Shown here in pieces: positions 29,873 through 44,218 of a stretch of 64,000 bases of DNA. The notes below the pieces were generated by a model. The model saw nothing but the letters and a program-made list of their open reading frames with translations, was not told the origin of the DNA and did not search any database. Source of the DNA: Lepisosteus oculatus. Its lineage: Eukaryota > Chordata > Actinopteri > Semionotiformes > Lepisosteidae. The position numbers and the translations under genes are program-made. Location: NCBI RefSeq assembly GCF_040954835.1, contig NW_027168383.1:310001-374000 (forward strand). The letters are read 5' to 3'. Position 1 is the first letter of the stretch, and each line of letters opens with the position of its first letter.

Positions 29873-30485
29873 TTGCTCTCCCGGCCAGCAGGGGTCGCCG
29901 TTGGTGCCGTAGGCTTTGGGAGGAAAACCTGCAGGATGGAAAGGTGATCTATAGCCTCATCTCTAGAGATGTTTTGTTGCTGTGGCATGTGTGTGACCCA
30001 TATTCAAAAAAAAAAACCCGTCTGTAAAACGAATATCGAAGCTGCCTCTAAATCTGCAAATGAAGATGAGTCGATAAACCACTCGTTTTTCGTATAACTA
30101 GACATATATTCATTTGTTACCGATTTCATTCATTGAGCACGGATACAATAGAGGTACAGCCATTCACTGTTTGACATGTCTGCACTGGTACAGAACCGAT
30201 CAATCAGAAAACGGGTGAAACTGTCTTTAGACTCAGCATACAGTACCGAGGCCCCCCATGACCAAATAAAGGCTAACCTCGATAATCAGCCTAAAGAACG
30301 CAGACTACAGCAAAACGACTGACTTTGAAAAGGGAATGAACGTCCGGAAGGAGTAGTGGAACTAGCTTGAGATGCTTCTCCGGACCCCTAACTAAAAGCC
30401 AGCGAGAACCAGCAGCGGCGTCCACTCCTGTCGAACCGGGATCCTTCCGCAGCCACGCAGCTCGTGGTGTCCTAACCCTCCCGTA
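29873..30485. other. 5S-U1 spacer
   Basis: No gene recognised. Contains short A runs. Near-identical at 32,567-33,179 and again at 38,136-38,727. Confidence 0.7.
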
Positions 30486-30498
30486 TCTGATTTTGGAC
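30486..30498 (-). terminator. snRNA 3' box of U1, unit 1
   Basis: GTCCAAAATCAGA on minus, about 10 nt past the U1 3' end, fits the 3' box GTTTN(0-3)AAANNNAGA except at the second and third T. Directs Integrator-dependent 3' end formation. Same at 33,180-33,192. Confidence 0.65.
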
Positions 30499-30507
30499 CA
30501 AGCACAT

Positions 30508-30671
30508 CAGGGGAGAGCGCGAACGCAGTCCCCCACTACCAGAAATTATGCAGTCGAGATTCCCACATTTGGGGAATTCGCAGGGGTCAGCACAGCCGGA
30601 GTGCAATGGCCAAGCCTCGCCCTGGGTGAACCTCCTTCTTGATCAAGGTATCTCCCCTGCCAGGTAAGTAT
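30508..30671 (-). ncRNA. U1 spliceosomal snRNA, unit 1
   Basis: 164 nt, the standard vertebrate length. Starts ATACTTACCTGGCAGGGGAG, whose ACTTACCT pairs with 5' splice sites. The 70K-binding loop region GATCAAGAAGGAGG, stem-loops II and III, the Sm site AATTTCTGG and the final hairpin ending CTCTCCCCTG are all present. No TATA upstream, an octamer at -235 and a 3' box downstream, all as expected for a Pol II snRNA gene. Likely functional. Confidence 0.95.
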
Positions 30672-32566: not shown

Positions 32567-33201
32567 TTGCTCTCCCGGCCAGCAGGGGTCGCCGTTGGTG
32601 CCGTAGGCTTTGGGAGGAAAACCTGCAGGATGGAAAGGTGATCTATAGCCTCATCTCTAGAGATGTTTTGTTGCTGTGGCATGTGTGTGACCCATATTCA
32701 AAAAAAAAAACCCGTCTGTAAAACGAATATCGAAGCTGCCTCTAAATCTGCAAATGAAGATGAGTCGATAAACCACTCGTTTTTCGTATAACTAGACATA
32801 TATTCATTTGTTACCGATTTCATTCATTGAGCACGGATACAGTAGAGGTACAGCCATTCACTGTTTGACATGTCTGCACTGGTACAGAACCGAGCAATCA
32901 GAAAACGGGTGAAACTGTCTTTAGACTCAGCATACAGTACCGAGGCCCCCCATGACCAAATAAAGGCTAACCTCGATAATCAGCCTAAAGAACGCAGACT
33001 ACAGCAAAACGACTGACTTTGAAAAGGGAATGAACGTCCGGAAGGAGTAGTGGAACTAGCTTGAGATGCTTCTCCGGACCCCTAACTAAAAGCCAGCGAG
33101 AACCAGCAGCGGCGTCCACTCCTGTCGAACCGGGATCCTTCCGCAGCCACGCAGCTCGTGGTGTCCTAACCCTCCCGTATCTGATTTTGGACCAAGCACA
33201 T

Positions 33202-33365
33202 CAGGGGAGAGCGCGAACGCAGTCCCCCACTTTTAGAAATTATGCAGTCGAGATTCCCACATTTGGGGAATTCGCAGGGGTCAACACAGCCGGAGTGCAA
33301 TGGCCGAGCCTCGCCCTGGGTGAACCTCCTTCTTGATCAAGGTATCTCCCCTGCCAGGTAAGTAT
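33202..33365 (-). ncRNA. U1 spliceosomal snRNA, unit 2 (Sm-site variant)
   Basis: 164 nt, same landmarks as unit 1, with an identical splice-site-pairing 5' end. The Sm region reads AATTTCTAAAAGTGGGG where unit 1 has AATTTCTGGTAGTGGGG; the two Gs that end the Sm site are lost. Sm ring assembly may be weakened. Octamer at 33,599-33,606 and 3' box at 33,180-33,192 are intact. Confidence 0.9.
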
Positions 33366-37563: not shown

Positions 37564-38749
37564 GGTCGTCTTTAAACGCATCGGGCTACTCCCTAAGTAG
37601 TCTGTGCTACTTACTGCATTGTAATCGTACCCAGTAAGAGATTTCCTTCATGTAAATGAACTGCACCTGACAGCTTTAGAAAAACACCTGGGCTCAGTAT
37701 GGTGCTGAGAGCTCAGCGTTGCTGTTCTAATTAGCACGCACTGCATCGGCTATGAGCCCGAACTTTTCAATTATTCCGATCAGTAAGTCAACATGTAGTC
37801 CACATGAACGGTAGAAATATTCTCTTGTCTGTCTCTTGTTTGTATAGAACTGAATGTCCCTGACAATGTACTGTTAGTTTTAATTGAAGAACGGCATTTG
37901 TGTTCAAATATACCAGACAAGTTTATGTAACTGCTCATGCGACACTCAGTTGTAATTAGTCAAGAAATAAAGTCGAACAACAGCTGCGGGTTTGATTCTG
38001 AACGTATGAGATTGCAGCGCCTTTTACTTCCATTGACAAATGATAGAGATTCGAAGAGAGATCCTTCAGACCAGCAAGCAAACCCACGGCTATTTCGGTT
38101 TTCTATCTAGGCAACGTCGGTGTCTGCAATAGCATACGTTGGTGCCGCAGGCTTTGGGAGGAAAACCTGCAGGATGGAAAGGTGATCTATAGCCTCATCT
38201 CTAGAGATGTTTTGTTGCTGTGGCATGTGTGTGACCCATATTAAAAAAAAAAAACCCGTTTGTAAAACGAATATCGAAGCTGCCTCTAAATCTGCAAATG
38301 AAGATAAGTCGATAAACCACTTGTTTTTCGTATAACTAGACATATATTCATTTGTTACTGATTTCATTCATTGAGCACGGATACAATAGAGGTACAGCAA
38401 TTCACTGTTTGACATGTCTGGTACAGAACCTACAGAACCTAGCAATCAGAAAACGGGTGAAACTGTCTTTAGACTCAGCATACAGTACTGAGGCCCCCCA
38501 TGACCAAATAAAGGCTAACCTCGATAATCAGCCTAAAGAACGCAGACTACAGCAAAACGACTGACTTTGAAAAGGGAATGAACGTCCGGAAGGAGTAGTG
38601 GAACTAGCTTGAGATGTTTTTCCGGACCCCTAACTAAAAGCCACCGAGAACCAGCAGCGGCGTCGATTCCTTTCGAACCGGGATTCTTCCGCAGCCACGC
38701 AGCTCGTGGTGTCCTAACCCACCCGTATCTGATTTTGGACCAAGCACAT
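37564..38749. other. No gene; end of inverted block, then unit 3 spacer
   Basis: 37,564-38,135 matches 18,908-19,480 inverted; 38,136-38,749 matches 29,899-30,507 of unit 1. Confidence 0.75.
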
Positions 38750-38874
38750 CAGGGGAGAGCGCGAACGCAGTCCCCCACTACCAGAAATTATGCAGTCGAG
38801 ATTCCCACATTTGGGGAATTCGCAGGGGTCAGCACAGCCGGAGTGCAATGGCCGAGCCTCGCCCTGGGTGAACC
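38750..38874 (-). pseudogene. U1 snRNA unit 3, 3' part (nt 40-164)
   Basis: 125 nt of U1, from GGTTCACCC to CTCTCCCCTG, with the normal Sm site AATTTCTGG. It stops exactly where the LINE begins. The missing 5' end lies on the far side of the LINE at 44,017-44,045, minus seven bases. Confidence 0.92.
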
Positions 38875-39078
38875 GATTTCGATTTTTAAGAACTTGATTT
38901 TCTTTTCACAAAAAAATACAGGACATCACAAATCAGAAAGCTTTACATTAATATACATACTTAAAACAGTATATATGATCACATCTCATTACATTTTGAC
39001 ACGGTAACAGTTACATAGCAACAATTTTCTTTTTTTCTGGTGCAAATCACATTCTTTACTTAAACATGATAATGTTTT

Positions 39079-42000
39079 TCACAGTTTCTTGAGATATTGA
39101 CCTATGCTCTCTATTTCCCACAGATTTTCTGCTTCCTCCCTCCCTTCTCTCCACAGATCTCTGAGGTAATAGTTCTCTCGGGTGATGAACAGGGCCAGGC
39201 TACCTGCTGCCTTGACTGGGACCTCGATGCCTTTGAACAGCCCCATGTTCCTCACTCTCCACAGGGCGTCTTTCCCACTGTTCACCACGGCCCAGATCCT
39301 GTCAAACACGTCGGGAGGAAGTTTGACAGGAGAGATGCCGTATATGACGAAAGCAGCGGTCAGGGTAAATTGGGGCGAGAGAGCCTGCAACCAATCTTCA
39401 AACTGTGCCCAGAAGGCCTTAGCAAAAAAGCAGGACCACAGGAGATGGGTCACAGTCTCCCCCTCGCCGCAGCCCACCCTAACGCAGCGAGGGCTGGGGG
39501 TGAGGCCCCTACGGTACAAGAAAGTTCGTACCGGTAAGCACTGGTGGACGACACTCCAGGCAAAATCTCTGTGAATGTTGCACAGAAACTTAGAGGATGT
39601 GTGTTTCCACACCTTCCTTGTTTGGGCTGATGTTAAAATGCCCACAGGGGTCTGCCTATTGTTCTGGGGTGCAACAAAATCTTCCAGTTTTTGAACGCTG
39701 ACATCTCGGAGGGGAATATGGCCAATTGGGTGAGATCTTAGAAAACTTTTAACTGTCCCATAAATTGCAGGGCATGTGTCAGAGAGTGGGACGTCCAGCT
39801 TGGGTCTGACATCCCACACTCTGAACACCTCCTTACCTACCCAGAGCCTGGAAAAATAAGTCCAGGTACGCGCTGCAGGTGCTGTTGCAAAGCCTCTCAG
39901 CACAGAGGCCAGGAAAATGCACAGCAGCTTCGTAGCAATATCTGGGACAGACTTCCCCCCTGAGGGTAGCGGCCTGTACATTATTTCCCTTCTGAGTCTT
40001 TCCTGCTTCCCACCCCATAGAAATTGAAACATCAATCTCCTCAGCACCGCCGCAACACGGTGTGGGATTGGGAAGGTAGAAGCCAGAAAATTCAAGACAG
40101 GCAAGAGCTCGGCTTTGATGACCAGCACCTTCCCTGTCATGGTGAGGTCTCGGTCCTTCCATTGCATCAGTTTTTTGTTTAAGATTGGCAATTTGTTCTG
40201 CCAATTTACTGTTCCCATCTCTTCTCCAAAATACACCCCCAGGACCTTAATTCTCTTCTCTTGCAGCCTGAGATCATGTCCTTCTTTTGGCTCCCTCCAG
40301 TTCTGATAAAAAATCTCACTCTTAGATTTGTTAATTTTTGCGGAGGAAGCCAAAGAGAAACGCTCACAACACTGCAGAGCTCTGCTAATTGAGGCATTGT
40401 CAGAGAGGAGCAGGGTGACGTCATCCATGTATAGAGATGTCTTTACCTCTCCCCCCCCACTTCCAGGCACTGGTATCCCATTAATGGCCTGATCCTGGCG
40501 CAAGGCACAGGCTAAGGACTCCATAGCCAAAACGAATAACAAGGGGGATAATGGGCAGCCCTGCCTCACCCCTGAACAGACTTCAAAGGGGTGTGATCTA
40601 TTGCCATTAACCATTACTCTGCTGTTGCTACCTGTGTACAGCAGGTTAATCCACTTTCTCATGATGGGGCCAAAATTCATGTGCTCAAGTACCGATGTTA
40701 AGTACTGCCGGTTTAGGCGGTCAAAGGCCTTTTCTAGGTCTACACCTAAAATGCACAGAGGGAGGGAGCGATCCTCTGAGTACAGACAGACATCCCTCAA
40801 CAAGGCCAGGTTGTCGCTCATCAGGCGTCCTGCTATCCCACAAGTCTGTTCTTTCCCTACCAGTGAGGCCACTACATTTTGTAGGTGCAGGAAAAGGGCT
40901 TTGGACAGGATCTTAGTGTCCACGCCTAACAGGCTGAGGGGTCTCCAGTTCTTTATGTCATTCTTTGCTCCTTTCTTAAACAGGAGAGAGATAGTGCCTT
41001 CTCTTAAGGAGTCAGGCAGCAATTCTGTCTTATAGCTTTCCTCGAATAGGAGCAGTAGCGGATCCTGAAGCAGATCCCAAAAGGTGCAATAAAATTCTTT
41101 AGGGAGCCCGTCAGCACCCGGAGTTTTCCCCTTCTGTAAGCTCTCCATAGCCTGTCTCAGCTCTTCTACTGTCAAATCCCTCTCAAGTACTTCCCTATCT
41201 TCTTCACTCAAAACGTTTTCTAGCTTTGAGGTAAAAAAAAAGAATTTCTTTATCCTTTACCTCTGTAGAGCTGTACAGTCTTGAGTAGAAGGCCTCGGTG
41301 CAGGAGAGGATAGCACTCGGCTCTGTTCTCTCTCGTCCCTCCTCATCAACTACACTTTCCATGACAGACTTGGAGCCCACCACTTTCCTGAAAAAGAAGC
41401 GAGTACACTTCTCATTTTCTTCCAAGAACTGCACTCTGCTTCTTAACAGCACTCCTCGACTACTTTCTTCGGCTATGCTCCGGATGTCCTTTTTTAAAAG
41501 GGTGATATCCTCGAGCACATCGAAGCCACTGTGCAGCATCGTGTAGAGACGCTGCAGCTGCCTCTGTTTCCTGGCTAGCACTCCTCTCCGTCTGGCAGCA
41601 GCCTTCCTTCCCTCAGCCATGAAAAAGGCCTTTGTCCTCATCTTCACCTCCTCCCACCACTCTCCTACTGACCCGTACAGACACTGCAAGGACAGCCACT
41701 GTGATAGTTTCTCCTTGTAGCGGGATACTACCCCCTCGTTCTCTAGCAGCTTTGTGTTGAGTTTCCAGAGGCCTGGGCCAAAGACAGTCCCGCCCTGGAG
41801 TTCCACTCTACACCCTAAAGCCTGATGATCTGAGAAGAAGACAGGCTGAAGAGTGACCCCAACAACTTTCACTCTCTCTGAAACAAAGCAATAGTCAATT
41901 CTGGAGCTGCTATTCCTCCCTGACCATGTATATCCTGCTGTTGTGGGATATATACATCTATATGTGTCTGAGAGTTTAAAGTCTTGAACTAAGTTTTGCA

Positions 42001-42499
42001 GGGCCAGTGAGCTAGAATCCAATTTTATCGGAGAGCTAGACTGCCTGTCTGTGTGCTCTAAGATACAGTTAAAATCCCCTCCCACTATCACGTCTGTGCT
42101 ACTTAACAATAGGGGGGAGAGTGCCTTGAGTAGCTCCTCCCTTCCTCCCACGTCAGTAGGACAATACACATTGATTAGCCGCAGGTTAACGGTCCCCCAT
42201 TCCACATCCACACACAGCAACCTGCCATCTATGACCCTCTGAATACTTTTCAATTTGAAAGCCCATCCTTTGAAAAGAATGGCCACGCCAGAGGCTCTGT
42301 TGTTATTGTCCCCTGACCAAACAGAAGGCCCTTTATCCCACCTATCTTCAAAGCTTTTATACCTCTCTTGATAGGCTAAAGCACACTCCTGCAACATCAA
42401 CACATCTCTCTCTCTCTGCTGGAGGTAATCAAAGACAGACTGGCATTTAACTCTGTCATTGATACCTCTGGTGTTAAGAGAAATTATGTTTAGAGCCAT
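39079..42499 (-). CDS. LINE ORF2 (APE endonuclease-reverse transcriptase), one frameshift
   Basis: Starts MALNIISLNTRGIN at 42,499. The endonuclease has GGDFNCIL, SSRIDYCF and FSDHQAL motifs. After a run of nine A on + (41,233-41,241) the frame shifts by one, and RT continues as a 710-residue open frame: TPGADGLPKEFY, GVDLEKAFDRL, SGVRQGCPLSPLLF and the catalytic YMDD (residues 261-264 of that part). A cysteine/histidine cluster (CVRVGCGEGETVTHLLWSC) is near the C-terminus. Together about 1,150 residues, normal for the clade. The enzyme nicks target DNA and copies its own RNA there. Confidence 0.92.
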
Positions 42500-42525
42500 A
42501 TTACATAAGAAAGTGGAACCAGTCT

Positions 42526-43979
42526 TTACAAAACACATTTCTCTTCGGTCTCACCTGTTACCTTCTTCTTTTTCTTCTTACCAATTTCCTGCCAGCCATC
42601 CTCTGAATGAGCCTTCATCAGGATGGCAGCAGTAAAAGCGTTCACGGAGTCCATTTCAAGGAAGGGGGTAGAGGGAGGGGTGGAGGGGTTCCAGCTGTCC
42701 CCATCTCCTTCCTCCTCGCTCGGGGAGAAAACAGAGTCATTTTTCCTTTTCCTCAAGTCCAGCTCCTGGGAGCACTGAGGGGAAAGGGGTGCAGCCGATG
42801 CACCAGTCTCCTCTTCCCCCTCACCCACCAGCTGCTGCAGATCCTCCGTGATGGACTGGATGGAGGAGAGGAGGGCATCTGTAGCACTTGCAGAGTTTGA
42901 GAAAAGTTTGAGAAAAGCAGCTCCGCTGAATCCTGGGTATCGTCGCTGGACCCGCTCCACCGGGGGGCCCCACACTGGCCCTCGTTCTGAGGAGCAGGAG
43001 TGGGGGAGGGGTCCTCGCTGTTCTCTGGGGTTTTCAAACCCTCGTGCTTGTCTGGTGCAGTCTGCGGTTGTGGGAGCGTAGTGGATTTCTCTTCCACCGG
43101 CCCCGGAGCCACAGCAGGACTGATCCTGGCTGGAGGCTGAGACTCTTTGTCCAACAAGGGTTCTTTGTTTGACTTGTTGTTTGCTTTGGCTTTTCGGGCC
43201 GGTTTGGCTGAAACAAGCACTGCCTCATCCTTTCTCATTTTGAGTTTATTGGCGTAGGCGTGAGGGCAGTTCTTAAAAACGTGTCCTTCCGAGCCACATA
43301 AATTGCACTTTGGCAGCATTGAACAGTCAGAGGCTAAATGTCCCTGTTTGCCACAGGTCTTGCAGAATTTCACAGTGCAGGACGATGCCAGGTGTCCCAC
43401 AGCACCACAGCGCCGACACACCTTTGGTTGTCCCACATAAAAAACATAGCCATTGCAGGCGCCCAGCCGGATTGTAGAGGGCAGGTGCCTTAAGCCTCCA
43501 TTTACATTGTCTGGTAGCAAGCGAACCTCAAATTTCCTTGCTCCTGTTTTTATACCGTCAACATCTCTAACCTCAGTTCCATGGTGGACGGTGCAGTACT
43601 GCTTAAGCCAGGTGTGAATGTCCTCCGTCTTTGCCAGTTCCGAGAACATAACAACATGCACCGTTTTCCTCTCTCTCTGTGTCAGAGGCTGCAAGTTGAT
43701 CTTCTCAAGGGCAGGAACTTTCCCTCTTTTTGCCTCAAACACATCCACACATTGTTCAAACAGAGAATAGGTAGCAAAAACAACCTCAAATGCTTTCTGA
43801 CCTGGGAGAGCGAAGATGAAATCCAAGTGCCGAGGTTCAAAGCCAAGTTCCTTCTGTAACACTTTTCTGCTGAACTGCATACGATCCATGAAGAGGTCAT
43901 CCAAAAGCTCAAAACGTACAGCATTCTTGCGGGATCCAAAGGTTGCCATCTCAAACTGCAAAACAAACACTGCTTCCAC
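42526..43979 (-). CDS. LINE ORF1 (zinc-knuckle nucleic-acid-binding protein), frameshifted
   Basis: The first 350 or so residues are open from ATG at 43,979. They include three CCHC knuckles at about 185-250 (CRRCGAVGHLASSC, CKTCGKQGHLASDC, CNLCGSEGHVFKNC), the usual ORF1 hallmark of Tx1-clade LINEs. A low-complexity P/S/E-rich tail follows. An 11-bp tandem duplication (GTTTGAGAAAA twice, about 42,892-42,915 on +) shifts the frame; the tail continues in the second frame to 42,526. ORF1 proteins bind the element RNA. Confidence 0.88.
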
Positions 43980-44016
43980 AAAACAAGAAAACTATCCAAC
44001 TACTCCAACTACAGGC

Positions 44017-44045
44017 TGATCAAGGTATCTCCCCTGCCAGGTAAG
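44017..44045 (-). pseudogene. U1 snRNA 5' fragment (nt 4-32)
   Basis: CTTACCTGGCAGGGGAGATA then CCTTGATCA on minus. It ends at the LINE 5' junction. Bases upstream of nt 4 do not match the unit 1 and 2 upstream region, so a second break lies right at the U1 start. Confidence 0.85.
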
Positions 44046-44218
44046 CCGAGAGCCGCAGGCGATGAGCCCGGAGCTGAACGGGCCCCACTGGCTCGTTTGT
44101 AAGGCCAGGTGCAAGCTAGAAGAAGAAGAAGATAAATATGAAGCGTTACCGCAACGACATGCCATGAGACGATCGATAACGATTTCCATAGGATCCCCGC
44201 GGTTGCCTGGCAACCGTC

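Follow-up and report, generated by a model that had tools for sequence, protein, structure and literature searches.

A Tx1-like LINE of Lepisosteus oculatus repeatedly inserted at nucleotide 40 of U1 snRNA genes and apparently carrying a U1-derived 5' head

Keno, a long interspersed nuclear element (LINE), belongs to the Tx1 clade, which is characterised by an open reading frame 1 (ORF1) with RNA-binding domains and CCHC knuckles and by a separate ORF2. R2, a LINE of the 28S ribosomal DNA, is co-transcribed via the promoter of its host gene, and its 5' end is freed by a ribozyme. The SINEU elements, short interspersed nuclear elements reportedly described by Kojima in 2015, are said to have U1- or U2-derived heads, to be associated with Tx1 LINEs and to target a Mariner repeat. 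According to PMC4640811, Keno is a LINE with an APE endonuclease that resides in U2 small nuclear RNA (snRNA) genes, and Utopia is a LINE of the same genes with a restriction-like endonuclease. Dada-U1 DNA transposons use a single insertion site in the U1 genes of fish (PMC3706591 and PMC8869645), and PMC13174262 reports chimeras of LINEs and snRNAs as well as co-option of promoters by L1. Here we analyse a stretch of 64,000 nucleotides from Lepisosteus oculatus (NCBI RefSeq assembly GCF_040954835.1, contig NW_027168383.1, positions 310,001 to 374,000; hereafter the window), in which a LINE is joined at both ends to pieces of a U1 snRNA gene. We hold with good confidence that this is a Tx1-like family whose main target is the U1 snRNA gene at nucleotide (nt) 39/40, entered in sense orientation, and which would be transcribed from the U1 promoter and inserted by target priming.

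The initial annotation had described the element as sitting inside a U1 gene, with U1 nt 40-164 adjoining its 3' end, U1 nt 4-32 adjoining its 5' end, nt 33-39 lost and no poly(A) tail. BLAST reproduced both joins (Table 1), and the 5' piece is identical at 29/29 positions to both intact U1 copies of the window. Where these copies read AGAAGGA at nt 33-39, the LINE has GCCTGTA at the same place. Poly(A) is indeed absent; copies stop in GAAATC/GAATC units, zero to two of which follow TTAAAAATC. On the 3' side the LINE does lie in a U1 gene: the interrupted U1 is matched by Rfam at 38750-38919 (minus strand), and the segment of flank plus U1 (38600-38874) shares 96-97% identity with the corresponding segments of the two intact copies (30358-30632 and 33052-33326). 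The 5' side did not hold up, as the DNA upstream is spacer of a U5 repeat with no U1 promoter, and the U1 5' fragment, taken for the left half of the target, appears instead to be carried by the element.

One genome of 1.2 Gb was searched for such junctions with exact-letter patterns, each yielding the first 100 places for listing beside the total count; diverged copies escape such patterns and are missing from the counts. A pattern made of the final 21 bases of the LINE gave 314 matches, and the reversed-pattern control gave none. Repeated joins to U1 nt 40, which had been named beforehand as the mark of a U1-targeting family, were found in 238 of these 314 exact 3' ends, with GGTTCACC (U1 nt 40-47) lying within 25 bp downstream. 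By arithmetic, about 0.1 such joins would be expected, and a chance association is thus excluded. For comparison, exact intact U1 38-mers number 398 in the genome. The first 100 of the 314 ends were classified individually: 64 meet U1 nt 40, 8 meet the start of another LINE copy and 28 lie elsewhere. Among the 64 are 58 with exact GGTTCACC and six in which the U1 gene differs at the first or second base (L052, L067, L111, L112, L128, L145). The 3' end was not found where it was sought in L130, L140 and L148. The insertion point could be placed at nt 39/40 or at 40/41, the first G being ambiguous with the tail unit; the G that opens most off-target flanks may likewise be tail-derived. Independent copies at a single target nucleotide, as expected of a target-specific LINE, are seen, and strict absence from other sites is not. 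Identical 3' ends at unrelated sites, which the initial annotation counted against targeting, do occur as a minority, many of them short and 5'-truncated, and the majority is at U1. To judge from its copies, the LINE thus behaves as a target-specific element whose specificity is strong but not absolute.

Flanks were compared for those copies among L001-L068 that have a pattern-matching tail followed by the U1 start (55 loci, 37 distinct after merging of identical ones). With groups defined at an identity of at least 97% over at least 400 bp, the 37 distinct U1-embedded 3' ends fell into nine downstream-flank groups, eight of them usable (L014, lying at the end of a contig, has no flank). LINE identity between groups, taken over its last 900 bp, is 95.9-98.9%, or 90-91% for L068, of which only 278 bp were compared; the flanks are 80-97% identical or unalignable, with the L008/L039 pair reaching 98% over only 62 bp. 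Thus L001 and L040 share 98.2% in the LINE and 80.5% in the flank, and L001 and L057 share 98.4% in the LINE and have unalignable flanks. A single copied insertion would show a LINE as diverged as its flanks, so that this contrast means repeated insertion. Separate events are also recorded in truncated elements: in L042 a second, truncated element directly follows a first, with GGTTCACCCAGGG duplicated on both sides, L068 is truncated and has a GGTTCACCCAGA duplication on both sides, and L081 is truncated at nt 59 and repeats GGTTCACC. We consider it very improbable that one chance insertion into a U1 gene was passively multiplied with the snRNA arrays, without any targeting. Passive amplification is real, given the flank identity within groups, and two type-B copies (tail plus GAATC; L069, L070) share one other sequence at the expected LINE 5' end; amplification alone was nevertheless rejected, as it does not yield LINEs of about 98% identity in such divergent U1 flanks, variable tail units, or several 5' truncations and target-site duplications at one and the same nucleotide. 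The copies show, as far as their sequences can, that insertion at U1 nt 40 was repeated and that occupied genes were later multiplied with the arrays. The suggestion of a U1-targeting family is thus supported by the recurrent junction, the divergent flanks, the truncations and the target-site duplications together.

The 5' end is equally uniform. Junctions of U1 nt 15-32 with LINE nt 1 number 471, versus 495 LINE 5' ends (two overlapping exact patterns; controls 0). Of the first 100 LINE 5' ends listed, 22 lacked an exact U1 head, and all nine of these that were fetched have an altered one: L134-L137 carry a base change in it, L138 and L139 have its end in duplicate, and in L131-L133 it is truncated. 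The junction is present at 26 of 28 loci examined, and the DNA before the head, classified by eye, was U1-promoter-like in 16, U5 spacer in 3 and of other kinds in 7. In L138 and L139 a U1 promoter is followed by intact U1 nt 1-47, a second TTGATCA and then the LINE; nothing is missing from the target up to nt 47, so the second head end comes with the element. The head also occurs away from U1 genes. One such site is a 7SL RNA gene, which shows the duplication GGGAGGCTGAGA. Another is a U7-like sequence, which scores 30.3 bits in Rfam, short of the gathering score of 34; here GGTTTTCTGAAG stands on either side and a few additional bases precede the head. Two more, likewise with no U1 gene upstream, are C16:18305298 and C16:19312083. 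Truncated heads are seen at C1:49692236, C7:28116785 and C13:33800746, the last of which has U1 nt 40 to about 101 after the LINE and then departs from U1, as would be expected of a read-through RNA. U1 nt 1-32 thus seem to belong to the mobile unit itself. Because the junction recurs at one nucleotide, a new template switch onto U1 with every insertion was rejected. LINE sequence was not found at the expected 5'-end position in L078-L080, L085 and L087, and the other sequence at this position in the type-B copies may be a nested or recombined element.

The head might also be a U1-derived 5' untranslated region that was gained a single time, through a template switch or the joining of RNAs, as in U6/L1 chimeras or SINEU heads, and has been inherited since; targeting would then be a separate property of the endonuclease, and the U1 promoter would not be needed. 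The single recurrent junction is compatible with such an origin, as is a presumably U2-like piece ahead of one head. Chimeras of snRNAs and LINEs are, moreover, known (PMC13174262). The leader of only 67 nt before the first ATG speaks against it, as do the U1-promoter-like DNA before 16 of the 26 junctions and the U1 nt 40 onward that follows the LINE in one copy away from a U1 promoter. We regard this alternative as possible and rather doubtful.

Off-target and stacked insertions bear on how the site is chosen. Eleven of the 28 off-target copies are visibly 5'-truncated (L053-L056, L060-L066), and in L059 and L117 the 5' end is complete and bears a U1 head (L090, L093). Five of the 28 share one site (L125, L126, L143, L144, L146) and three another (L120-L122), so there are fewer than 28 separate sites. 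The site shared by five lies on five contigs, and identical flanking sequence is also present in L070. At L118 (C16:18314430-18314870), two LINE 3' ends 238 bp apart possibly mark a short non-autonomous unit. Among the 3' ends that meet another LINE, five do so at LINE nt 8 (L113-L116, L147) and three at about nt 20 (L089, L094, L149). For L147, the one case in which it was read, the 5' end of the upstream copy (L096) is a U1 head behind U1-promoter-like DNA. The re-insertions at LINE nt 8 fit a site of GATCA, seven further nt and GG, which reads (slash, insertion point) GATCAAGAAGGA/GGTTCACC in U1 and GATCAGCCTGTA/GGTGGAG at the chimeric junction. At C16:20318918-20339418 (L088, L089, L092, L094, L149), LINE copies follow one another head to tail at a spacing of about 5,126 bp. 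A preference for small-RNA loci exerted through chromatin or protein recruitment, with no sequence target at all, would agree with the fact that some other sites are small-RNA genes too (7SL, U7-like, beside U5 repeats). We think this improbable, since one U1 nucleotide forms the 3' junction in most exact copies, and the five re-insertions at LINE nt 8 keep the same spacing, U1 nt 1-32 plus GCCTGTA/GGTGG corresponding to GATCA plus seven nt/GGTTC in U1.

Returning to U1 targeting, what the genomic copies establish is repeated insertion at nt 39/40, the recurrent junction of U1 nt 32 with LINE nt 1, and the presence of the head at other sites. The carried head suggests that the element uses the U1 gene promoter. 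An element just downstream of this promoter would give rise to a transcript consisting of U1 nt 1-32, the LINE and U1 from nt 40 onward. The APE endonuclease would make a bottom-strand nick at nt 39/40, and the RNA would be positioned for target-primed reverse transcription by its short tail and by the U1 3' sequence gained through read-through. Once the complementary DNA (cDNA) reached the U1 head, the 5' join could be resolved by homology to nt 1-32 of the target itself, which would regenerate promoter, U1 nt 1-32 and LINE while dropping nt 33-39, and would explain full-length U1 copies without a duplication and without these seven nt. Target-site duplications are about 8-13 bp long; they (GGTTCACC...) would arise when the cDNA stops early or the homology is not used. 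Duplication of the arrays would later multiply the occupied genes. On balance we lean, by a small degree, towards an obligate U1 parasite: its messenger RNA would always be a U1 chimera made from the U1 promoter, the head would both supply transcription and guide 5' resolution, each insertion would rebuild the promoter, and the U1 head with GCCTGTA/GG would form a new target for stacking.

Several points weigh against the U1-targeting model as a whole. Among the 100 3' ends classified, 28 lie at neither U1 nor LINE starts. Passive amplification, plain within flank groups, accounts for much of the copy number, and the figures of 238 and 471 are therefore not counts of events; the pair L001 and L008, with 97.1% identity in the LINE and 96.2% in the flank, does not tell repeated insertion from copying. 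The survey of non-exact heads covered nine of 22, and L138 and L139 are neighbours that may represent one event. The C13 copy could instead be an insertion into a U1 pseudogene fragment. The window copy itself is not behind a U1 promoter. Transcription from the U1 promoter is argued from heads that reach nt 3-4 at non-U1 sites, and homology-directed 5' resolution is deduced from end structures only. In the C16:20318918-20339418 array, what we take to be a stretch like U2 nt 1-23 precedes the U1 head, and Rfam did not report U2 in this array; joining of RNA to RNA may thus also occur and might have created the first head.

The flank of the window copy was traced further. The DNA upstream of 44045 is unlike that upstream of the two intact local U1 genes and matches the spacer of a U5 snRNA tandem repeat of about 508 bp, a match drawn from the best 40 of 1252 candidates (best 40 of 1411 and of 816 in the other DNA similarity searches). 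U5 snRNA genes stand in a tandem repeat of about 508 bp at L154 (C12:11061050-11061650). The uninterrupted repeat reads CTCTCGGCTTGCGGG and the LINE-bearing copies read CTCTCGGCTTACCTGG, a comparison by which CTT is common to both sides of the join. The same 5' flank is present in L071, L073-L077 and L091, and in the window it meets U4 upstream DNA at about 44112. Because U5 spacer and not a U1 promoter lies upstream, we interpret the window locus as a rearranged product of U5 spacer, U1 head, LINE and U1 3' part that was multiplied with its array.

In the genome-wide list of copies, the window element is locus L009 (features in Table 1). It looks broken, because the endonuclease and reverse transcriptase (RT) occupy two different frames and ORF1 is split over two. 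Over 69% of its length, the 408-aa ORF1 frame shares 95% identity with an Atractosteus spatula entry named "ZCHC3 protein, partial", which is probably a mis-annotated LINE ORF1. Small-RNA genes are dense in the window, with 21 tRNAs (ARAGORN), four U4, two intact U1 and two 5S genes, and the U1 and 5S repeats are spaced at 2,694 bp.

Table 1. Coordinates of the LINE copy, its flanks and the intact U1 genes in the window
Feature	Position	Strand	Basis
Intact U1 gene, uninterrupted comparison target	30508..30671	-	Rfam
Intact U1 gene, second uninterrupted comparison target	33202..33365	-	Rfam
U1 snRNA gene nt 40-164, 3' part of target, with normal U1 downstream flank beyond	38750..38874	-	Rfam, BLAST
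Tx1-like LINE, 5,142 bp, 5' end full length relative to other copies	38875..44016	-	BLAST/copy comparison
LINE 3' end TTAAAAATCGAAATC, with copy-variable short GAAATC/GAATC tail units and no poly(A)	38875..38889	-	
Reverse transcriptase frame, 710 aa, RVT_1 and zf-RVT	39079..41211	-	Pfam
APE-type endonuclease frame, 444 aa, Exo_endo_phos	41204..42538	-	Pfam
ORF1 frame, 408 aa, two ZCCHC3-type RNA-binding domains and CCHC knuckles	42753..43979	-	Pfam
Second ORF1 frame, overlapping and continuing the 408-aa frame	42526..42975		
U1 nt 4-32, U1 head judged to be element-borne	44017..44045	-	BLAST, copy comparison
5' flank, spacer of U5 snRNA tandem repeat, not U1 promoter	44046..44111	-	

The element has the APE-like endonuclease and RT of the L1/Tx1 group (Exo_endo_phos and RVT_1 in Pfam), as well as an ORF1 with RNA-binding domains and CCHC knuckles and a separate ORF2. 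Its RT frame finds its best match among solved structures in human L1 ORF2p, at 205 bits versus 76 bits for R2. In an RT tree built from rows without Tx1/Keno reference sequences and without an L1 outgroup, it falls into a clade of 30 rows, mostly unnamed relatives (SH-aLRT 99), beside a clade with a Danio protein named TX1. Among the 120 of 1319 matches listed, the closest proteins (P0001-P0024) are 44-55% identical, and they are protein records only, without flanking DNA; a scan of viral contigs contained no relatives with flanking DNA. No U1-targeting LINE was found among the titles and abstracts listed, some of the lists being capped (for example at 20 of 123 and 10 of 262), and Repbase and subscription papers being outside this search. 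A U1-targeting LINE would add a new target and an unusual 5' solution to the target-specific LINEs, a class of interest both for the safe insertion of genes and for what it can teach about parasite life in essential genes. Its hundreds of natural junctions record on-target and off-target outcomes and bear on how a genome tolerates very many disrupted U1 genes.

With R2 the gar LINE shares a home in a multicopy RNA gene and, if our reading is right, a reliance on the host promoter; it differs in endonuclease, target and clade, and R2 has a ribozyme-freed 5' end. SINEU elements resemble it in what is said to be a U1-derived 5' head on a retroposon, and they are non-coding and reportedly target a Mariner repeat instead of U1 genes. 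Keno is alike in its APE endonuclease and its fixed site in a multicopy spliceosomal snRNA gene; the gar LINE was not assigned to it, as its main target is U1 and not U2 genes and it bears a U1 head, a feature not described for Keno in the available text of PMC4640811. Utopia, to go by the same text, likewise targets an snRNA gene, ranges from strong to weak specificity and forms tandem insertions; membership was rejected, since the gar LINE has an APE-type domain in place of a restriction-like endonuclease, and its target gene is also another. Dada-U1 shares the single-site insertion in U1 genes and was set aside as well: it has a DDE transposase, makes a 6-8-bp duplication at GCGAAT/GCGAAC and uses a different U1 position, whereas the gar LINE encodes an RT and an APE endonuclease and inserts at nt 40. 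New here is a head of U1 nt 1-32 that apparently travels with the element.

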